Below are positions 55,199 to 64,000 of a stretch of DNA of 64,000 nucleotides, one piece after another (the first letter of the stretch is position 1; each line of letters starts with the position of its first letter). The notes below the pieces were generated by a model that was not told the DNA's origin, did not search any database, and saw only the letters and a program-made list of their open reading frames with translations. A program made the position numbers and the translations under genes. The DNA lies in the NCBI RefSeq assembly GCF_012641515.1, contig NZ_JABAHY010000008.1, positions 1 through 64,000 on the forward strand, read 5' to 3'. The stretch comes from Nesterenkonia sedimenti. GTDB taxonomy: Bacteria; Actinomycetota; Actinomycetes; Actinomycetales; Micrococcaceae.

Positions 55199-55846
55199 AT
55201 GACCGCAATCAACCCGAGTATTCTCAGCGCAGATTTCGCCAATCTCGCCGCCGAGCTGGGCCGCATCCCCTCCAGTGACGCAGTACATGTGGATGTGATG
55301 GATAACCATTTCGTGCCAAATCTGACCATGGGCCTGCCGGTGGTCAAAGCCATCCGGGAGGCAACCTCGCTGCCGCTGGATATTCATCTGATGATCGATG
55401 AGGCCGATACCTGGGCTCCTGGTTACGCAGAACTCGGAGCGGAGTCAGTGACCTTCCATGTGGAGGCCTCCCAACGGCCCCGCCAGTTGATTCGGGATCT
55501 GAAGTCCCATGGGGCCAAGGCCGCGATGGCCATCAAACCCAAGACGGCTTTGGAGCCGCATCTGGATCTGCTCAGCGAGTTGGACATGCTGCTGGTGATG
55601 ACCGTGGAGCCGGGTTTCGGCGGTCAGGCCTTCATGGACGAGATGCTGCCTAAGATCACTGCAGCTCGGCGAGCGGTGGATGACCTCGGCGGTGAGGTCG
55701 CCGTCCAGGTCGACGGTGGAATCAACCGGGAGACCATTCTGCGGGCCGCCGAGGCCGGGGCGGATACTTTTGTGGCAGGTTCTGCGGTCTTCGGCGCTGA
55801 GGATCCCGACGCCGCCATTGAGGGACTGCGCCAGCTCCTGGCCTAA
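55199..55846 (+). CDS. rpe: ribulose-phosphate 3-epimerase
   Basis: 215 residues, a TIM barrel. [64 protein letters not shown] and [11 protein letters not shown] are diagnostic, with the two catalytic Asp and metal ligands in place. It converts ribulose 5-phosphate to xylulose 5-phosphate. It starts 12 bp after rsmB; the AGAAGGACATCACC ribosome site is good. Confidence 0.97.
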
Positions 55847-56965
55847 TTGAGGGTGGAGGGCAGCAGGATCCGGAACAGCTCCCGGCGCGAGGAGAGCCTC
55901 AGTTTGGCCAGAATATTGCTCATATGGGACTCCACAGTCCGCACGGAGAGGACAAGCCGTTCGGCGATGTCGTTATTGGACAGCCCCTCCCCTGCCATCA
56001 GCGCGATATCCCGCTCCCGACTGGTCAGGGCAGCCAGTTTCGCCTGAGCCTCATCACTGATCCAAGAGGGTAGTTCGGTGGGCACCCTGAGCCTGTTGGG
56101 CCAGGGGCTCGGATCCGCAGCTGCGCCCGCTCAGCCCCGATGGTCTCCAGGGCGGAGTAGAGCAGGCCGATTCCCTCGGGATCCCCCAACCCAGATTTGA
56201 TTAGACCGTGGATATAGTCCCCGGCGAAGCTGCGCAGGCTGGGTGGCCCGCCGGGAATACCCTCCAGTTCGGCCAGCTGAGCTCTGCCAGCTGCTGCCCG
56301 GCCGCAGTAGTACTCAGCCCGGGCGGTCAGTACCGCTGAGGTCAGGGCATCTCGCCAGAATGCCGGTTCCCTGCGGGGTTTCAGCAGCAGGGCTGCAGCA
56401 TCCTCGAAGTCCACGCGGGCGAATGCTCCCCAGATCAGGGCTGCGGTGCGGCCATGCTGTCCCATCTGACCGTGTCGGATTGAGGAATTGGCGACGACGT
56501 CGAGGACTCGGCTCCAGGCTCCGAGCTGGCCGCGTGCTGCCGGAATCAGTGCGGCCAGACCATAGGCCACCATGGACAGTGGCCCTTCGGATTCAGCCAG
56601 CACCTCGGAGGCGGCGGCTTCGGCTAGCTGGGCTGCCTCATCCCAGAGACCGGCGTCGAAACAGATCAGAGCTAATTGGACCCGGGCATGGGTGGCGTCG
56701 CCGTCATCGAGGTAGCCCTGATTCTGCACTGCCCAGGAAAGGTCCTCATAGGCAATCTCCTGGGGACCGGTCTGCCGCAGCAGAGCGCCCCGGACCGTAT
56801 GCAGCACCGCATGGGCGTGTTCAGTCCCCCGGGAGCTGCGGGCCTCATCGACCAGCACATTAAACTGGTCGAAGATCGCAGTGCCGTCCAGGCGGCTGAA
56901 CATCGCCCACATCTGGGCCAGCAGCCTCGCGTCCTGGAGGTCCCGACGGACTTGTTCACGGGGGC
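55843..56965 (-). pseudogene. LuxR-family regulator, frameshifted and truncated
   Basis: The C-terminal LuxR helix-turn-helix is intact in one frame (LTSRERDIALMAGEGLSNND, IAERLVLSVRTVESHMSNIL; 55843-56085). The preceding TPR-like region of about 295 residues is in another frame, shifted near 56090 within QLRIRA. Upstream the coding frame continues to 56965, where it meets the IS3 fragment, so the N-terminus (where such proteins usually carry an ATPase) is gone. Probably not functional. Its end overlaps the rpe stop. Confidence 0.85.
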
Positions 56966-57250
56966 AGGCAGCCGGGATCTACTACATCCCACCAGGTGCC
57001 CCGTGGCGCAACGGGTACGTGGAGTCCTTCAATAGCCGGATCCGAGATGAATGCCTGAATATCAACAGTTTCTACTCGCTGCTGCACGCGCAAGTGATCA
57101 TCGGTGATTGGAAGCAGCAATACAATGAAATCCGCAGGCACTCAGCCCTGGGCTATCTGCCACCTGCAGGCTACGCCCGGCAATGCCGGCACAAAGGAGA
57201 ACGAACCCCCGACTCGCGTAACGAGTGGACCTAATAACGGGGTCATTCCA
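56966..57250 (+). mobile_element. IS3-family 3'-end fragment
   Basis: Codes in frame for IYYIPPGAPWRNGYVESFNS through to GERTPDSRNEWT and TAA, the last third of an IS3 orfB, and ends with the terminal sequence GACCTAATAACGGGGTCATTCCA. The coding and terminal parts match the element at 2466-3656 almost throughout, but this copy is undamaged where that one has a deletion (TPDSRNEWT versus TPRLA). Its 5' part is missing at the junction with the LuxR relic. Confidence 0.85.
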
Positions 57251-57314: not shown

Positions 57315-57878
57315 TCATTCCGCTAAAGCGCCCGCTGCCTGCAACACCTTCAACGTCGCCAATACTGCATTATCCCGATACTGCTTGCTCTGGGCGACCT
57401 TACGCACCTCAGCCACCACCTCGTCCGCGCCGACCACCCTGATCGGGCGACCGCCGACCCACTGGCGCTCATCCTGCGCCCAATCCCGGATCTGCTCCTC
57501 ATGGCCACCGCCAGCGAATTTACCGACGTATAGACGCATTTCAACCTGATCAGGCCGGTACCCGAAACGTTCGCAAGCCCCGTGCACGATGCCATCACGA
57601 ACCTCTGGCTCATTGAGTGCGTAGTACCGGCTTGTGTGTCCTTTCATACCCATGACCTCCTCGGCGACTACGCCGCGGGAGCCGAAGAACGATTTCACGG
57701 TCGCGAGCACTAAGCGCTCGGAGTTCGCGCCGACCAGATCGACCTCGTAACCGTGAGTCTGCCATTCCTCGTAGTTGGTCTTCCGTGTGCGGCGTGAGAC
57801 TGGGAACTTGAGCGCGCCGGATACGACAAAACCTTCGGATTCCATCGCGAGGGCGACGAACTGCTCGAAGGCTTCCAC
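57315..57878 (-). CDS. uncharacterised protein, possibly nuclease-fold
   Basis: 187 residues from GTG 57878, with an AGGAGGGG ribosome site. No named family is recognised. The N-terminal half has YEEWQTHGYEVDLVGANSER followed by LVLATVKSFFGSRG; Glu/Asp followed by a strand ending in a conserved Lys recalls the PD-(D/E)XK core, but the second acidic residue is a Thr here, so this is weak. The second half has YVGKFAGGGHEEQIRDWAQD. It is convergent with the IS3 fragment and divergent from the Ltp-like gene. 57251-57314 and 57879-58121 show no other gene. Confidence 0.55.
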   Translation of the reverse strand: MEAFEQFVALAMESEGFVVSGALKFPVSRRTRKTNYEEWQTHGYEVDLVGANSERLVLATVKSFFGSRGVVAEEVMGMKGHTSRYYALNEPEVRDGIVHGACERFGYRPDQVEMRLYVGKFAGGGHEEQIRDWAQDERQWVGGRPIRVVGADEVVAEVRKVAQSKQYRDNAVLATLKVLQAAGALAE

Positions 57879-58121
57879 GGCGCCCCTCCTGTCCTGCCAA
57901 TGATTTCTTTACTATATTCCGAAAATGATAAGGACATGGGCGGGTTTCGAACGTGCTGAGCAACTGCCCGCGCGGCTTCCAGCGTTAACTGGAAAGCGCT
58001 GCTCGCCGGTAGCAACTGAAAGGGTCCCCCATGTTGCCTTGAGATAAGCTGTGAATCGACGATGATTATGTTCGTCGTCTCACTCGCACCACTCGCATAA
58101 GTGAATCACCAGGGGGAAATC

Positions 58122-58799
58122 ATGGCGCAGGATTATGGCGCACCATTCGACGCTACCGAGCAGCCAGCAAAGAAGCCTAAGAAATGGCCTTGGATTGTTG
58201 GGATCGCAGGCTCCTTATTCGTGGGAATCGGAATCGGAGCCGCAGGAGGAGACTCTGAGCCAGAGGCAGCTGAGGAAACTGAGACCACGGTTGAAGTCGA
58301 AGTTGAGCCGGAGGACATTGAAGAACGCCGGACTGAGCTCGATGAGCGTGAGGCTGACATTGATGAGCGTGAAGAGGCGCTAACAGCCCTCGAATCTGAT
58401 TTGGATGAGCGTGAGGATCAACTCGCTGAGGCACAGGCAGTGCTAAATGAGCAAGAAGCAGAGGAAGAGGAGCTCGCCGCAGCGGAGGAAGACGAAGATG
58501 ACGACGACGATGTGACCTCGGGCCAGCGCAATGCCCTCCGGTCAGCCGAGTCGTACCTCGCTTACACCGGTTTCTCTCGCCAGGGCCTCATTGAGCAGTT
58601 GGAGTTCGAGGATTTCTCCCGCGAGGATGCAGAGTATGCCGTGGATAATGTGGAAGTCGATTGGAACGAACAGGCCGTTAGGTCAGCAGAGTCGTACCTT
58701 GAATTTACGTCCTTCTCGCTGCAAGGGCTGATCGACCAGCTCGTGTTCGAAGGCTTCACCCAAGAGCAAGCTGAACACGGCGCCAACGAAGCGTACTGA
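58122..58799 (+). CDS. membrane-anchored protein with coiled coil and two Ltp-type repeats
   Basis: 225 residues from ATG 58122, with AGGGGGAAATC in front; an upstream GTG lacks a site. A short cytoplasmic N-terminus is followed by one membrane helix (about 20-42, PWIVGIAGSLFVGIGIGAAG), a long acidic coiled coil (about 60-120, DERE heptads), a poly-Asp stretch and two repeats of about 42 residues (ALRSAESYLAYTGFSRQGLI and AVRSAESYLEFTSFSLQGLI) of the host-surface lipoprotein Ltp type. No lipobox Cys is present. Ltp of a streptococcal prophage blocks DNA entry of infecting phage; here that role is inference. Confidence 0.75.
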   Translation: MAQDYGAPFDATEQPAKKPKKWPWIVGIAGSLFVGIGIGAAGGDSEPEAAEETETTVEVEVEPEDIEERRTELDEREADIDEREEALTALESDLDEREDQLAEAQAVLNEQEAEEEELAAAEEDEDDDDDVTSGQRNALRSAESYLAYTGFSRQGLIEQLEFEDFSREDAEYAVDNVEVDWNEQAVRSAESYLEFTSFSLQGLIDQLVFEGFTQEQAEHGANEAY

Positions 58800-58805
58800 G
58801 TAACA

Positions 58806-58847
58806 CGTGAGGGTGGGGTACATATGAGCCCCACCCTCACGTTTATT
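58806..58847 (+). terminator. terminator after the Ltp-like gene
   Basis: CGTGAGGGTGGGG (58806-58818) pairs perfectly with CCCCACCCTCACG (58829-58841), followed by TTTATT. It separates the Ltp-like gene from the DUF6361 unit. Confidence 0.85.
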
Positions 58848-58878
58848 CTGGGAAGAGCCTGGTCACAGAGGGAGGACA

Positions 58879-60144
58879 ATGGCGTCGTCGATATCTTGGT
58901 TGGATGCCTCTAGCGAAGAGCAGAAGCGGATGCGGGAGATCCTTGGGTTGTTCTCAGACAAGGAAAGTCGTGAGGAACTCGGGCTGGGGCAGATCCGTGA
59001 TGCTCTGGGCGACGGGCTCTTCCCTGGTACGTCCACGCTGCACACTCGCGCCCGCTATATGCTCTTCAGCCCGTGGATTTTCCAACAGATCTCAACTCGG
59101 CGCGGAACCCTAGAGGACGCGCGCAAACTCGAACTGACGCTAGTGAATACCCTCAGGGATCAAGGCAGCCGCAATGAGGGGATCATTGGCTATGAAGCGG
59201 GCAGTGCACTGCAGACTATGCCCTCCACCATTTATTGGTCAGCATTGAGCACCTACGGCATTCTGCAGAACCCCAATCTGAACCGCGAACAAGCGCTGAG
59301 CCTGCATGGGGCTCACGCGGCTACCGAACTTGAAGAATTGGGCGAGGCCACGCTTCGCGCATGGCACGCAGGCATTCCTGAAGCGCCCGAGGGATTTCCC
59401 AATGAAGTTCCTGAGGGCATGGAGCTGACCTTTGAAGAAGCCGACTGGCTGCGGGAGCGCATCATCTATAGCCAACCAGAGTCCATGCTCGCCCACCTTG
59501 CAGCTCAGCCCTCCCTTACTGAAAACGCAGTCCCTTGGGAAGAACCTGCAGCCCTGGCGGCAACGGGTGAACGTGCGCGCATTCTTCACCATGCCCAACG
59601 TTTTTCCGAAGTCATCCACGGTGCTCAACTGCTCTATAACCTGCTGATCGCCGAAAGCTACGAGGCCGCAGGTTTCACGAAAATAGAGAACCCTGCGGAA
59701 AGCTTCACCCAGCGGTACGGCGAGTGGGCGCAAGAGTTCGTTGATAACCAACCCGCGACGGATTGGGATATTGAGGATTTCTTCCTGGTGATCACAAAGA
59801 TCCGTGGGTCTCGTCTGGGTGCTTCAAGTGAGGCGTTCGTACGTGACTGGGTGAAAATACTCGACGGCGCAGACCCGCGCACCTTCACCACTTCTAGCGC
59901 GGCCGGGGATCTCGTCAGGAAGCGGGAAAGCCGGAATAAGGGCGCGATGGCGCGGATTGGCAATAAGAAGCGCCTAGAGACCTGGGGCGGCAGCTCAGGT
60001 GCTGGTAGTTACGTTTACCGCTGGTCTTATGTGAAAACCATTCTGGGCGATATCCAAACTGCCCTGGCATCTGGACCCACCGGGGAAACGGCACAGGACC
60101 GAACAGAACCAGCGGAAATCCTTGAGGTCGCACAGCATGCTTGA
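58879..60144 (+). CDS. DUF6361 protein, ZacA-like candidate
   Basis: 421 residues. The N-terminal block SISWLDASSEEQKRMREILG, ESREELGLGQIRDALGDGLF and PGTSTLHTRARYMLFSPW is characteristic of DUF6361. The C-terminus has RWSYVKTILGD after a Gly/Ser-rich turn. No catalytic motif is evident. The GGGAGGACA ribosome site is strong. It is the first gene of a three-gene run and overlaps the PLD gene by 8 bp. DUF6361 proteins occur, from memory, in the Azaca anti-phage system together with PLD and helicase proteins; the role as sensor, adaptor or effector is unknown. Confidence 0.75.
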   Translation: MASSISWLDASSEEQKRMREILGLFSDKESREELGLGQIRDALGDGLFPGTSTLHTRARYMLFSPWIFQQISTRRGTLEDARKLELTLVNTLRDQGSRNEGIIGYEAGSALQTMPSTIYWSALSTYGILQNPNLNREQALSLHGAHAATELEELGEATLRAWHAGIPEAPEGFPNEVPEGMELTFEEADWLRERIIYSQPESMLAHLAAQPSLTENAVPWEEPAALAATGERARILHHAQRFSEVIHGAQLLYNLLIAESYEAAGFTKIENPAESFTQRYGEWAQEFVDNQPATDWDIEDFFLVITKIRGSRLGASSEAFVRDWVKILDGADPRTFTTSSAAGDLVRKRESRNKGAMARIGNKKRLETWGGSSGAGSYVYRWSYVKTILGDIQTALASGPTGETAQDRTEPAEILEVAQHA

Positions 60145-62032
60145 GCCGAATAATCGTTCCCTGCTCACTGAGATGTTGCAGCCACCTCGCGGATACAGCC
60201 TGGCACATGCTGTGGGCACTACCTTCACCTTGGATTTAGCCACAGCGCTCTCCATTCCGTTGAGCTTTGCCTCGCGGAATTTGGTTGCTCATGACGACGT
60301 CGGAATCCTCGCGGCCCTGGCTCAGTACAGTGACCGGATCACCATTTTCACCCAAGCCGGGCATATCAGTTCCGGTATGCGTTCGGAGCTGGTGGCGCTG
60401 CTGGAAGAAGTCATTCACCCGGTGAATCCGACAACCGGTATTTTTCACCCCAAAGTATGGTTCCTGGAATTTGAGAAGGACGACGACGTCGGGAACCAGT
60501 CTCCGGGATCCGCAGCGCGTGAACCTCAGCGTGCCTACCGGTTCCTGTGCCTGAGCAGGAACCTGACCGAGGACCGCAGTTGGGACCTGAGCGTCAGGCT
60601 GGACGGCAAATCAGCCACACCTGCGAACCATGACGAGTGCACCAGACGCAATCAGCCTCTGGTTGATCTGCTGACTCGACTACCAGAGATGAGCATCAGC
60701 GGTGTTCCGGCTGAGCGAACCCAGCAGATTCATGGCCTGGCGGAGCGAGTTTCTTTAGTGGACTGGGAACTACCGCCTGGGATAACGGACCTGGAATTCC
60801 ACCTTCTTGATGGTTCTGATGGTCGCTTACCTAATGGTTCGGCCATGTTCGAGGTTCCGGCCCGGGACGTTTTGACGATCTCACCTTTCGTGACAGCACA
60901 AGGTATGCACGCGGCTTTCGGCGATGTATCGCAATTCAGCACGTTGATTTCCCGGCCAGACGCCATTGACCAGCTGCCCACGGAAGCACTGCAGACCGGA
61001 AGTGCAGCCACGAGTCTGCAGACGTTTGTGCTGGATGATTTGCTTACCGAAGTCGAGGGTACGGAAGCCGGAACACTTTCGGGTCTTCACGCTAAGGCTG
61101 TTTTCCTACGCGAAAGGCGATACTCTAGCCGCTCTCGAGCGCTCATCGGTTCGGCCAATCTCACCGGTGGCGGACTTCATCGCAATGTGGAGTTGATGGT
61201 GGAACTACACGGTCACACGCGCCAGCTTGGCCCGGAGAAAGTGCTCGAGTCCCTGCGTTCTATGTTGGAACCGTATCCTTCCAACGGTGGTCAGGAAGCC
61301 AGCGATGTTGAGGTAGGACGCCAAGCATTAGCAGCACAACTACGGCAGCTCGCCGTCGGGAAATTCCATCTCGAAGTGACCGATGGTGATCCCTACGGTG
61401 CAGAAATCTGGTGCGAGCCGTCGGTACACGAGAAAGTCAGCGAACTGACTGAACAAGGCATCGAACTTACCTGGGCGTTGCACACCCAGAAGGGCCAGAA
61501 TCAGCCAATGCCTACCCACGCTGAGGAGCGCACCGAGCTGCGGAATCTGCAGCTAGCGGCCATCTCCCCATTCCTTCAGCTCACCGCCACCCAACGCATT
61601 GACGGTACGGAAATCTCCGACAGCACAATCGTCTCCGCGGAACTGCACCATGATGTCCCGGGAAGGCGGGACGCGGTACTGGCCAGGGGAATCGCGGACT
61701 CTGAAGCGTTCTTCAAACTCCTCGCACTGTTGCTGAACACCGGCGCTGAGGGCATCGGGCTCGGGGCAGCAAACGGTGAGGCCGCTGGCCAATGGGGTAG
61801 TCACGCTGCCCATCCTGCACTGTTTGAGTCGCTGTTGCGTTCCCTCGCACGCGGTGACGATGGGCTTGAGGTGGTCCAACGCATCCTCGCTGAGATCCAA
61901 AACCAATCCGAGGGGGAAGGCCAGGAAGCTATCAATTTGCCGGAGGGCTTCACCGAACTCTGGGCGAACGTGTGGACGGCCCGGCAGTCTCAGTTGCAGT
62001 CCGGCAAGGGGAAGAAAGGCGCAACCTCATGA
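60137..62032 (+). CDS. phospholipase D-like (double HKD) protein, ZacB-like candidate
   Basis: 631 residues from ATG 60137; an upstream TTG frame is open but unneeded. Two HKD-type motifs are visible: HPK at 104-106 with the following CLSRN (about 138-142), and HAK at 318-320 with GSANLTGGG (about 338-346) and RNVE (349-352). Two copies would make the usual PLD active site within one chain, fitting a nuclease or phosphodiesterase. No signal peptide or membrane helix. It overlaps the helicase gene by ATGA. Confidence 0.8.
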   Translation: MLEPNNRSLLTEMLQPPRGYSLAHAVGTTFTLDLATALSIPLSFASRNLVAHDDVGILAALAQYSDRITIFTQAGHISSGMRSELVALLEEVIHPVNPTTGIFHPKVWFLEFEKDDDVGNQSPGSAAREPQRAYRFLCLSRNLTEDRSWDLSVRLDGKSATPANHDECTRRNQPLVDLLTRLPEMSISGVPAERTQQIHGLAERVSLVDWELPPGITDLEFHLLDGSDGRLPNGSAMFEVPARDVLTISPFVTAQGMHAAFGDVSQFSTLISRPDAIDQLPTEALQTGSAATSLQTFVLDDLLTEVEGTEAGTLSGLHAKAVFLRERRYSSRSRALIGSANLTGGGLHRNVELMVELHGHTRQLGPEKVLESLRSMLEPYPSNGGQEASDVEVGRQALAAQLRQLAVGKFHLEVTDGDPYGAEIWCEPSVHEKVSELTEQGIELTWALHTQKGQNQPMPTHAEERTELRNLQLAAISPFLQLTATQRIDGTEISDSTIVSAELHHDVPGRRDAVLARGIADSEAFFKLLALLLNTGAEGIGLGAANGEAAGQWGSHAAHPALFESLLRSLARGDDGLEVVQRILAEIQNQSEGEGQEAINLPEGFTELWANVWTARQSQLQSGKGKKGATS

Positions 62033-64000
62033 GTGCAGTAGATCTGGACGCGGTCTTGGCCGGATTGCGTGACTTCCAAATCGACGCGGTGGAACACGTC
62101 AGCGAACAGTTCTACGGTGAGGACGCCCAGCAGCGAAGCGGGCGATTCTTGATCGCGGATGAGACCGGCCTGGGTAAGAGCGTGATCGCCCGGGGTGTAG
62201 TGGCCAAAGCCATCCGGGAGCTGGAAGCTGATCCCAACGTAGACCGCATCACTATCGTCTATATCTGCAGTAACCGTGATCTGGCGGGCCAGAACCTGGG
62301 CCGCTTGAATGTGACTGGCCAGCGTGAGATTGCCATGGCTACTCGGCTCTCCTTATTAGCTAAGGAGACTGCGCGGCTGAAGGAAACCGCCCAGGAACAG
62401 AACCATGCGCCGCAGGAATCGCCGGAAGATAGTGCGGTTGAAAGCCCCGCGCAGAAGCCCATCAACCTGGTGTCTTTCACCCCGGGGACCTCCTTCACCA
62501 CAGCATCCTGGAGGCAGGGCAGCGCCGAGGAGCGGGCACTATTGGTATTGCTCCTAGACGAGTTGCTGGAACAGACTCCGCACCAGCAGCACCTGACCCG
62601 TGTGATGTTTCGGGGCACGGTTTCCTCCGCCCAGCGGTTCAGTGACCTCTACGTAGGTGGGTTGGCTGAAAAATTCGACGACGACGGGATTGACCCGGCC
62701 ATCAGAAACGAGTTCGATCGGCTAGCGCGCCCGGAAGCTGTCCCTGAATTCATCAGGGTGCGCGATTGGATGGCCGATGTTTACCCGGAAGGGCATGAGG
62801 AACTAGATATGCCAGCACCGGATGTTCCGTGGGACATCTGGCACCCGTTGCAGAACGCTATATCCAAACTTCGAGCCCTGCTTGCCCGTGCGAGCGTGCA
62901 GACCCTGCAACCGAACCTGGTGATCTTGGATGAGTTCCAGCGTTTCAAATCACTGTTGGACCCTGAGCGTGGGGGAGAGTCTGCGGAGTTAGCGGATGCG
63001 CTTTTTAGCTACCCGGATGCGAAGGTCCTGCTGCTCTCGGCTACCCCATATAAGCCGTTTACTCGGGCGGACGAGGATGAAGAGGACCACTACGAAGACT
63101 TCCTCGCCACCATCAGTTTTCTGTCTGGTCACAATCCGGAGAAAGTCGCTAACGTCCGTGCGGCGCTTAGTCATTACCGAGATGCGGTCGGCACCGGTCA
63201 CGGAGCCGAAGCTGCAGCTGAGGAGGTACGTGCCGAACTGTTGCCGGTGATGAGCCGTTCGGAACGTCCCAGTCTGATCGAAGAACGGGATCTCGTCTCC
63301 ATGCGGCATATTGATGTGCCTGTACCTAGCGCAGAGGATCTCTCCGAGTGGGTGGCACTGGCAGATCTTGGAAAGTCCCTCGGCTCGGCGGTGAGCCCGG
63401 AGTACTGGAAGTCGGTTCCGTATTTTGTGAACTTCATGAGTGGCTATCGGATTGGTCAACAGTTGACCGAGCTGCCACCAGGGCCACAGCGGCAAGCAAT
63501 CGCGAAGAACCTACGACAGATGCGTTCCTTAAAGAAAACTGCGGTAGAACGTAGTGCGGAGCTTGATCCAGGCAGCGGACCGCTGCGCGCGTTGATCGCC
63601 GAAACTCTGGACCAAGAGTGGTGGAAGTTATTGTGGATGCCACCCTCCATGCCTTACCTCACGCCTGGGCCGGTCTATTCCTCGGTGGAGCCGGGCAGCG
63701 TCACCAAACAGGTGCTCTTCTCGGCGTGGTCTGCAGCACCCACAGCTATAGCAACGCTCCTGAGCCACGAGGCCGAACGGCGCATGATGGGCTTAGGCAA
63801 GCGCGGGCGCAATGCCGATGCCCCGGAGAACGCCACCCAGCGGTTCACATACCGGCGCGATGAGGACGGACAGGGCACGAGTCTTTCGACCTTGGCTATT
63901 TTCTGGCCGCACCCGAGCCTGCTCTCCCGTACTGATCAGCTCCAAGCTGCACGAGAGAACCATGGACTACTAGACCCTAAGTTGCTGGTAGATACGCTGC
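62029..64000 (+). CDS. SF2 helicase, ZacC-like candidate (cut by window end)
   Basis: 657 residues are visible from ATG 62029; the gene continues beyond the window. Motif I is ADETGLGKS (about 43-51), motif II is LDEFQRF (DEFQ, 301-304), and motif III is LLSATPY (335-341). A long insertion (about 110-290) separates motif I from motif II. The conserved C-terminal helicase lobe is not reached. A start overlapping the PLD stop suggests translational coupling. It is likely a DNA translocase in the defence unit, by context. Confidence 0.8.
   Translation, partial: MSAVDLDAVLAGLRDFQIDAVEHVSEQFYGEDAQQRSGRFLIADETGLGKSVIARGVVAKAIRELEADPNVDRITIVYICSNRDLAGQNLGRLNVTGQREIAMATRLSLLAKETARLKETAQEQNHAPQESPEDSAVESPAQKPINLVSFTPGTSFTTASWRQGSAEERALLVLLLDELLEQTPHQQHLTRVMFRGTVSSAQRFSDLYVGGLAEKFDDDGIDPAIRNEFDRLARPEAVPEFIRVRDWMADVYPEGHEELDMPAPDVPWDIWHPLQNAISKLRALLARASVQTLQPNLVILDEFQRFKSLLDPERGGESAELADALFSYPDAKVLLLSATPYKPFTRADEDEEDHYEDFLATISFLSGHNPEKVANVRAALSHYRDAVGTGHGAEAAAEEVRAELLPVMSRSERPSLIEERDLVSMRHIDVPVPSAEDLSEWVALADLGKSLGSAVSPEYWKSVPYFVNFMSGYRIGQQLTELPPGPQRQAIAKNLRQMRSLKKTAVERSAELDPGSGPLRALIAETLDQEWWKLLWMPPSMPYLTPGPVYSSVEPGSVTKQVLFSAWSAAPTAIATLLSHEAERRMMGLGKRGRNADAPENATQRFTYRRDEDGQGTSLSTLAIFWPHPSLLSRTDQLQAARENHGLLDPKLLVDTL

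Follow-up and report, generated by a model that had tools for sequence, protein, structure and literature searches.

A complete Azaca operon in Nesterenkonia sedimenti that may encode a split translocating nuclease

The first 64,000 nucleotides of contig NZ_JABAHY010000008.1 of Nesterenkonia sedimenti (Actinomycetota; assembly GCF_012641515.1), referred to below as the window, run at their far end into zacABC, an operon of the anti-phage system Azaca (ZacA-ZacB-ZacC), whose source paper is reportedly that of Millman et al. 2022. The whole operon occupies 58879-65250; the window end cuts zacC, and the contig, which reaches 147,764, carries that gene intact. Its three genes are:

58879..60144, + strand: zacA (DUF6361), ATG start, 421 aa; PADLOC ZacA E 1.5e-122, Pfam DUF6361 E 2.6e-59, AlphaFold2 (AF2) predicted local distance difference test (pLDDT) 89.7
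60137..62032, + strand: zacB, phospholipase D (PLD) superfamily with two HxK...N half-sites, ATG start, 631 aa; PADLOC ZacB E 4.3e-146
62029..64000 in the window and to 65250 on the contig, + strand: zacC, superfamily 2 (SF2) ATPase with a DEFQ box, 1073 aa

An earlier note, made from the letters of the window alone, had described an Azaca-like unit with overlaps of 8 and 4 bp on one strand, and the coordinates agree: zacB starts at the ATG at 60137, 8 bp before the end of zacA, and zacC at the ATG at 62029, sharing the four letters ATGA with zacB. The note's assignment of the first protein to DUF6361 is borne out by a Pfam score of 201.6 bits (cut-off 25; E-value above), and the helicase C-terminus that it lacked was recovered from the contig, where the zacC frame runs undisrupted beyond 64000 and closes at 65250; this rules out a disrupted helicase. 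The codons are likewise less GC-rich than the core, as the note had held: zacA, zacB and zacC have GC contents of 57.4, 58.0 and 59.0% and third-position GC contents (GC3) of 62, 63 and 65%, whereas 32 long open reading frames (ORFs) of the window, a reference set that takes in zacA and part of zacC, have medians of 65% and 79%.

The PADLOC models of the system are matched nearly end to end by all three proteins: ZacA scores 408 bits over positions 1-394 of 396, ZacB 486 bits over 1-583 of 586 and ZacC 1033 bits over 2-1016 of 1019, the latter two scores resting on the proper gene starts and the full zacC. In Pfam, ZacC matches DEAD and Helicase_C, and ZacB matches PLDc_2 below threshold (19.9 bits, cut-off 27); an NCBIfam search with ZacA gave no match. 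The gene content, the order A-B-C of three adjacent genes on one strand, the near full-length family membership and the intact catalytic motifs thus leave nothing essential, overlaps included, in which the operon differs from Azaca. These comparisons support upgrading the composition given in the note from Azaca-like to Azaca. Judged by its sequence, zacABC is an intact member of an already known system, not a new kind, and the locus is an ordinary copy. The note's statement that the mechanism is undescribed agrees with the available parts of two papers that give Azaca as mechanism-unknown (PMC12926258; PMC10482375), the second of which places it among the systems enriched in Actinobacteria. 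In the accessible text of other papers, Azaca has a PLD-like domain in common with Mokosh (PMC10952713) and ZacC is counted among the defence helicases (PMC12278908). A literature search, which left most subscription papers outside its reach, found no mechanism paper for Azaca, though one could exist, and no mention of DUF6361; a search for ZacA, ZacB and ZacC gave no defence paper among the matches listed.

To place the operon we used the best 80 of 470 confirmed stretches in the genome collection, a set biased to near relatives and including, by title, Actinomycetota, Chloroflexi, Bacillota, Pseudomonadota, Desulfobacterota, Verrucomicrobiota, Planctomycetota, a cyanobacterium, methanogens and others. 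The order A-B-C on one strand is found in 75 of these (though in some the contig stops within zacC), and in the other five the contig breaks off within zacB, within zacA or shortly behind zacA; the trio therefore recurs in other genomes, a recurrence on which the earlier note had made its identification hang. zacB is present at 40 bits or more in 77 of the 80, and the other three end at a contig edge. With the start codon taken as the one nearest to a 4-bp overlap, the A-B overlap is 8 bp in 29 of 77 relatives and the B-C overlap 4 bp in 46 of 75. Across 69 loci the pairwise distances of the three proteins correlate (r 0.89-0.93, the species tree not being corrected for) and nearest neighbours agree for A and B in 45, for A and C in 51 and for B and C in 54, which supports a linked evolution of ZacA, ZacB and ZacC as far as such distances can indicate it. 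The closest relative in this set is the copy of Nesterenkonia natronophila (62% identity in ZacA). Split genes occur: zacB of one Nesterenkonia genome (L063/G028) and zacC of another (G015) each lie in two frames. The zacC of Nostoc foliaceum (L116 13040-15412) is short, 790 aa, though its contig continues, and this copy may be broken.

The active-site residues of ZacB and ZacC were compared among relatives above an ORF length floor of 330 aa for ZacA, 480 aa for ZacB and 850 aa for ZacC. ZacB has the half-sites H104-P-K106...N142 and H318-A-K320...N341, and H104, K106, N142, D150, H318, K320, G338, S339, N341 and E352 are invariant in 75 of 75 proteins (the window and 74 relatives), the floor having dropped three of 77 zacB genes (the split L063 and the contig-cut L098 and L112). 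The DEFQ box of ZacC is D301-Q304; here G49-K50, D301-E-F-Q304, S337, D916, E937-Q938, G941-R942 and R945 are invariant in 70 of 70 (the window and 69 relatives), and the floor dropped six of 75 genes (L050, L086, L099 and L109 at contig ends, L114 in two frames, L116 short). Hence both the pair of HKD-type half-sites and the DEFQ box read by the earlier note are present and without exception among the counted relatives.

The structural model of ZacB, from 46 sequences (pLDDT 88.4, predicted template modelling score (pTM) 0.91), has 30 PDB fold matches at E <= 0.001, namely PLD4 and PLD3 (several with single-stranded DNA (ssDNA)), TDP1, phospholipase D, phosphatidylserine synthases, NgoAVII, SauUSI, vaccinia F13 and human BJ-TSA-9, with E-values of 2.5e-8 for PLD4 with ssDNA, 7.9e-8 for TDP1, 1.1e-5 for NgoAVII and 1.6e-5 for SauUSI. 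A profile search of PDB sequences gave SauUSI as the best match (7clg, E 1.4e-7), followed more weakly by the restriction endonuclease 2c1l (0.026), NucT (0.095), UPF0270 (0.4, not a PLD protein) and NgoVII (0.64). By profile ZacB is thus nearest the SauUSI-type PLD nucleases, and it is probably a DNA nuclease. Because both half-sites lie in one chain, no dimer should be needed for a complete active site, judging from the fold.

In ZacC we place a motif IV-like TK...FS.W near 559-567 and motif V near 908-918, which suggests an insertion of about 300 residues within the second RecA lobe. Besides ZacC itself, PADLOC families matching the protein are PDC-M27C (9e-15), DrmD, DpdE and BrxH, and in NCBIfam DrmD (E 1.9e-12), DpdE and RapA match, all below their own cut-offs. 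These weak relatives hint at an SNF2-like affinity (DrmD, DpdE) and suggest that ZacC is an ATP-driven DNA translocase. The ZacC of N. natronophila has a C-terminus about 415 aa longer than that of the window (L037 16220-17518), and neither Pfam nor PADLOC matched its last 433 aa; the extension was possibly fused from a neighbouring gene.

No such relatives were found for ZacA. Its model, from 62 sequences (pLDDT 89.7, pTM 0.86), is helical throughout except for a few short strand or bridge residues. Foldseek found no fold match for it (best E 0.74 in the PDB and 0.46 among viral models), and a profile search of PDB sequences gave nothing below E 1.6; with no matching solved fold there is no function to borrow from structure. 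Conservation peaks at residues 41-60 (0.79) and 241-260 (0.70) against a mean of 0.47. Further, residues 1-30 are of low confidence in the model and W7, D9 and F25 within them are 95-100% conserved, as expected of a segment that settles only on a partner. We infer that ZacA is an adaptor or sensor, or a brake.

On balance we consider it about an even chance (a probability of roughly 0.5) that zacABC, an intact and horizontally acquired Azaca anti-phage operon, works as a split SauUSI-like translocating nuclease licensed by ZacA. The all-helical ZacA would dock as an adaptor on ZacB, ZacC or both and restrain the nuclease until it encounters phage DNA in a particular state; ZacC would be the motor that moves along that DNA; and ZacB would be the cutter, its two HxK half-sites making one active site within one chain and cleaving the DNA tracked by ZacC. 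SauUSI is a single chain, consistent with its 953-aa entry named 'Putative helicase'. Azaca, if SauUSI-like, would differ from this one enzyme in putting motor and nuclease on separate chains from separate genes, and as far as the scanned neighbours show it has no methyltransferase of its own. The likeness consists in a PLD nuclease joined with a helicase-like translocase, and the SauUSI nuclease aligns with the second half-site of ZacB. ZacC is taken as motor and ZacB as cutter by analogy with SauUSI, for which the available text of PMC7913695 describes target recognition, ATP-driven translocation and then DNA shredding. According to the same text SauUSI reads its methylated target through a recognition domain, whereas ZacA has no counterpart in SauUSI.

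Other systems resemble Azaca less closely. DISARM (DrmC, DrmD) and Dpd (DpdE) share with it a PLD protein and an SNF2-like helicase of distantly related families, but the scores of the Azaca proteins lie far under the family cut-offs: ZacB reaches 27.5 bits with the DrmC equivalog (cut-off 133), ZacC reaches 46.4 bits with that of DrmD (cut-off 610) and matches DrmA at 29 bits over 48 residues only. No DrmA helicase, DUF1998 DrmB or methyltransferase was found among the neighbouring ORFs scanned, which are part of the region's ORFs. To Hachiman (HamAB) the likeness is by analogy only, in the helicase-nuclease logic of sensing and cutting; HamA and HamB are absent from the family matches listed for the trio. 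In the parts of the literature accessible, Hachiman is a nuclease-helicase pair whose helicase senses DNA damage, DISARM recognises 5'-overhang single-stranded DNA (PMC9142583), DruE of Druantia III is a helicase-nuclease acting on ssDNA-containing intermediates (PMC13192584), and other defence systems commonly have a PLD nuclease next to a helicase (PMC12458937; PMC12839542). By analogy, Hachiman, DISARM and Druantia III might serve as models for what marks phage DNA in Azaca.

Several observations weigh against this proposal of a split, licensed nuclease: 1) the role given to ZacA is a guess from position, helicity and conservation, with no fold or sequence lead. 2) The fold of ZacB also matches phospholipase D 7e0m (2.2e-7), the phosphatidylserine synthases 3hsi and 8yr5 and vaccinia F13, and the TM-scores of the matches at E <= 0.001 are low to modest, 0.17-0.34 by ZacB length and 0.15-0.57 by target. 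3) The matches of ZacC to families other than its own span about 30-90 residues, nearly all at motifs V-VI, and ZacC family matches occur in 6 of 14 control genomes, so that a short match to ZacC is not specific, other helicases being expected to give such hits. 4) According to the accessible part of PMC9142583, DISARM can do without its PLD protein DrmC, which did not co-purify. 5) On a conjugative Shinella plasmid a methyltransferase gene lies directly behind zacC.

The fourth of these points bears on an alternative in which ZacA and ZacC bind and translocate on phage DNA as a roadblock to replication or transcription and ZacB plays a supporting part, the arrangement proposed for DrmAB with DrmC; the text just cited also has DrmC often missing. 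The near-universal retention of zacB among the relatives, contig-edge losses apart, and the invariance of its half-sites in the window and in the 74 relatives above the length floor, with one split gene among 77, argue against an auxiliary part, and we regard the roadblock as unlikely.

A second alternative, which we consider rather more doubtful still, is restriction, self DNA being protected by a host methyltransferase encoded elsewhere and foreign DNA with another modification being cut. We clustered the neighbours of 85 loci (the 80 relatives with L002, L030, L032, L034 and L035) and scanned the nearest ORF on each side, 60 upstream and 63 downstream, with 15 ORFs above 1000 aa left out; neighbour families are the 25 commonest, and the ORFs, being picked by length, may in some cases be antisense. 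Mrr-type enzymes are the commonest upstream neighbours (Mrr_cat in 6 of 60, and in 2 of 63 downstream), N6_Mtase occurs in 2 of 63 downstream neighbours, and besides the methyltransferase gene on the Shinella plasmid there is an HmaB-like DNA methylase encoded elsewhere in the window's own genome. However, the scanned neighbours include no recurrent fourth gene for a methyltransferase, and none lies among the ORFs scanned beside the window operon. An obligate fourth gene of any kind was rejected, as the largest neighbour family is found in 7 of 85 loci and no constant gene is seen among the commonest families. The remaining neighbours are scattered restriction, BREX and helicase genes, with BREX, type I and Hma-type genes near some relatives' operons; Azaca keeps ordinary defence-island company.

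That Azaca is abortive, with ZacB a phospholipase that damages the membrane upon detection of phage DNA by ZacC or ZacA, seems very unlikely to us. The fold of ZacB, which matches phospholipase D and phosphatidylserine synthases too, cannot by itself choose between a lipid and a DNA substrate, but its PLD-family profile matches (7clg, 2c1l, NucT, NgoVII) are all nucleases, its second half-site has DrmC as nearest relative besides ZacB in PADLOC and NCBIfam, and its partner ZacC has nucleic-acid helicase motifs; both the profile matches and the motor partner speak for DNA.

The operon is preceded by the following elements:

58805..58842, + strand: terminator-like hairpin of 15 pairs behind the ltp gene, 36 nt before zacA
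58101..58799, + strand: neighbouring Ltp-domain gene (Pfam PF07553, E 7.5e-32)
57315..57878, - strand, opposite to the operon: ORF of 187 aa whose EVD...TVK pattern recalls, in our reading, a PD-(D/E)XK core
56881..57234, + strand: C-terminal fragment of an insertion sequence (IS) IS3-type integrase (rve_3, E 4.9e-25)
55843..56912, - strand: remnants of a LuxR-type regulator in two frames, like the rpe-nrdR gap gene of G010, G015 and G023

The position that the earlier note gave the operon, beyond IS3 and LuxR relics and next to an Ltp-like gene, is confirmed by these matches and by a GerE domain (E 2e-17) in an 80-aa part of the LuxR remnant; for its 295-aa part Pfam and NCBIfam gave no match, and tblastn aligned it with the roughly 1000-aa gene of relatives. 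The 187-aa ORF gave no Pfam, NCBIfam or PADLOC match, and a search of 20 kb against Rfam found nothing that reached the gathering score. Of the terminator claimed before the first gene, the stable hairpin stands, the 83-nt stretch 58800-58882 folding at z -3.75 against shuffles; the pattern scan, with one site against 1.0 in shuffles, is not significant by count alone. With so little room (36 nt) between this hairpin and the start of zacA, no promoter for the operon stands out. It is nonetheless highly improbable that the operon lies dormant as a silent relic among IS debris: the hairpin is strong, the sole sigma-70-like site in 58000-59200 (58039-58066) lies before ltp, and the split genes of G028 and G015 and lone ZacA remnants exist, but all three window frames are open with intact motifs and the promoter scan took in sigma-70-type consensus sites only.

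The operon lies in an accretion of about 15 kb between rpe and nrdR. These two genes are on one contig in 27 of 30 genus genomes, the window's own included, and on different contigs in three; the gap between them is 76-191 bp in 15 genomes, 3.0-3.5 kb in nine, 38 and 60 kb in two and 15,087 bp in the window's genome, so that it is below 200 bp in 15 of 26 comparable congeners. In the three 3-kb gaps looked at (G010, G015, G023) it holds one gene of about 1000 aa, whose LuxR type is deduced from its match to the GerE piece of the window. LuxR-like pieces flank the operon on both sides, with IS3 fragments and an IS110 transposase. That the two pieces are one gene split by insertion is unsupported as a clean split, since their strands are opposite and the parts of the relatives' gene to which they correspond overlap. 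A DUF222/HNH endonuclease gene lies between the LuxR-like piece and nrdR (contig 68715-70088, - strand; L002 14716-16089). In three of the four other carriers of the genus (G006, G028 and G015, with rpe-nrdR gaps of 105, 134 and 3,332 bp; G014 is the fourth) the operon lies elsewhere, so it was acquired repeatedly or moved. The 15,087-bp insertion and the lower GC content of the operon (57-59% against 65%) point to horizontal acquisition.

ZacA is found in 5 of 30 genus genomes (own included), in none of 28 from the family or order beyond the genus, in none of 14 controls and, the window's genome again being counted, in 8 of 396 across the phylum, of which G259 and G188 have nothing but N-terminal remnants. 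Use of the N-terminal module alone in these two was rejected: they are remnants, with no zacB or zacC within the 3.2-3.4 kb examined. ZacC at E < 1e-170 is found in the same five genus genomes, with weak, short matches (E 3e-12 to 4e-8) in five others and elsewhere in G000 and G028. ZacA also matches 45 plasmid records, 33 over at least 80% of the query, and both plasmids examined (of Halomarina, and the conjugative one of Shinella) carry the whole trio. A phage-borne ZacA was considered and rejected: the sole match in the phage collection, MT835621.1 (UNVERIFIED), has ORFs that we read as HsdS/HsdR-like, then zacA, zacB and a zacC cut by the stretch examined (L124), and is most likely a bacterial contig. 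Among viral contigs there were 11 pattern matches, none being a relative.

The window's own genome has a second defence locus (L123 1240-8681; G000:C5, about 47.2-54.7 kb) with an HmaA-like SNF2 helicase (1344 bits), the HmaB-like DNA methylase (1095 bits) and a YhcG/DUF1016 PDDEXK nuclease. Another Nesterenkonia Azaca (G006, L030 2289-4888) adjoins Abi_2-like and nucleotide cyclase (Pycsar-like) genes, named from their translations.

The value of the finding lies in ZacA and in residues that can be tested, not in the locus itself. We tentatively suggest, as a possibility that we think will probably not hold in all its parts, that ZacA is an undescribed all-helical fold serving as the sensor or licence of a split translocating nuclease, that Azaca would be a SauUSI-like shredder telling phage DNA from self by the state of the DNA or by a phage protein and not by methylation, and that the conserved, low-confidence N-terminus of ZacA may be a switch docking on ZacB or ZacC. 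The exact residues named for the mechanism, H104 and H318 of ZacB, K50 and D301-E302 of ZacC and W7 and D9 of ZacA, make it directly testable.

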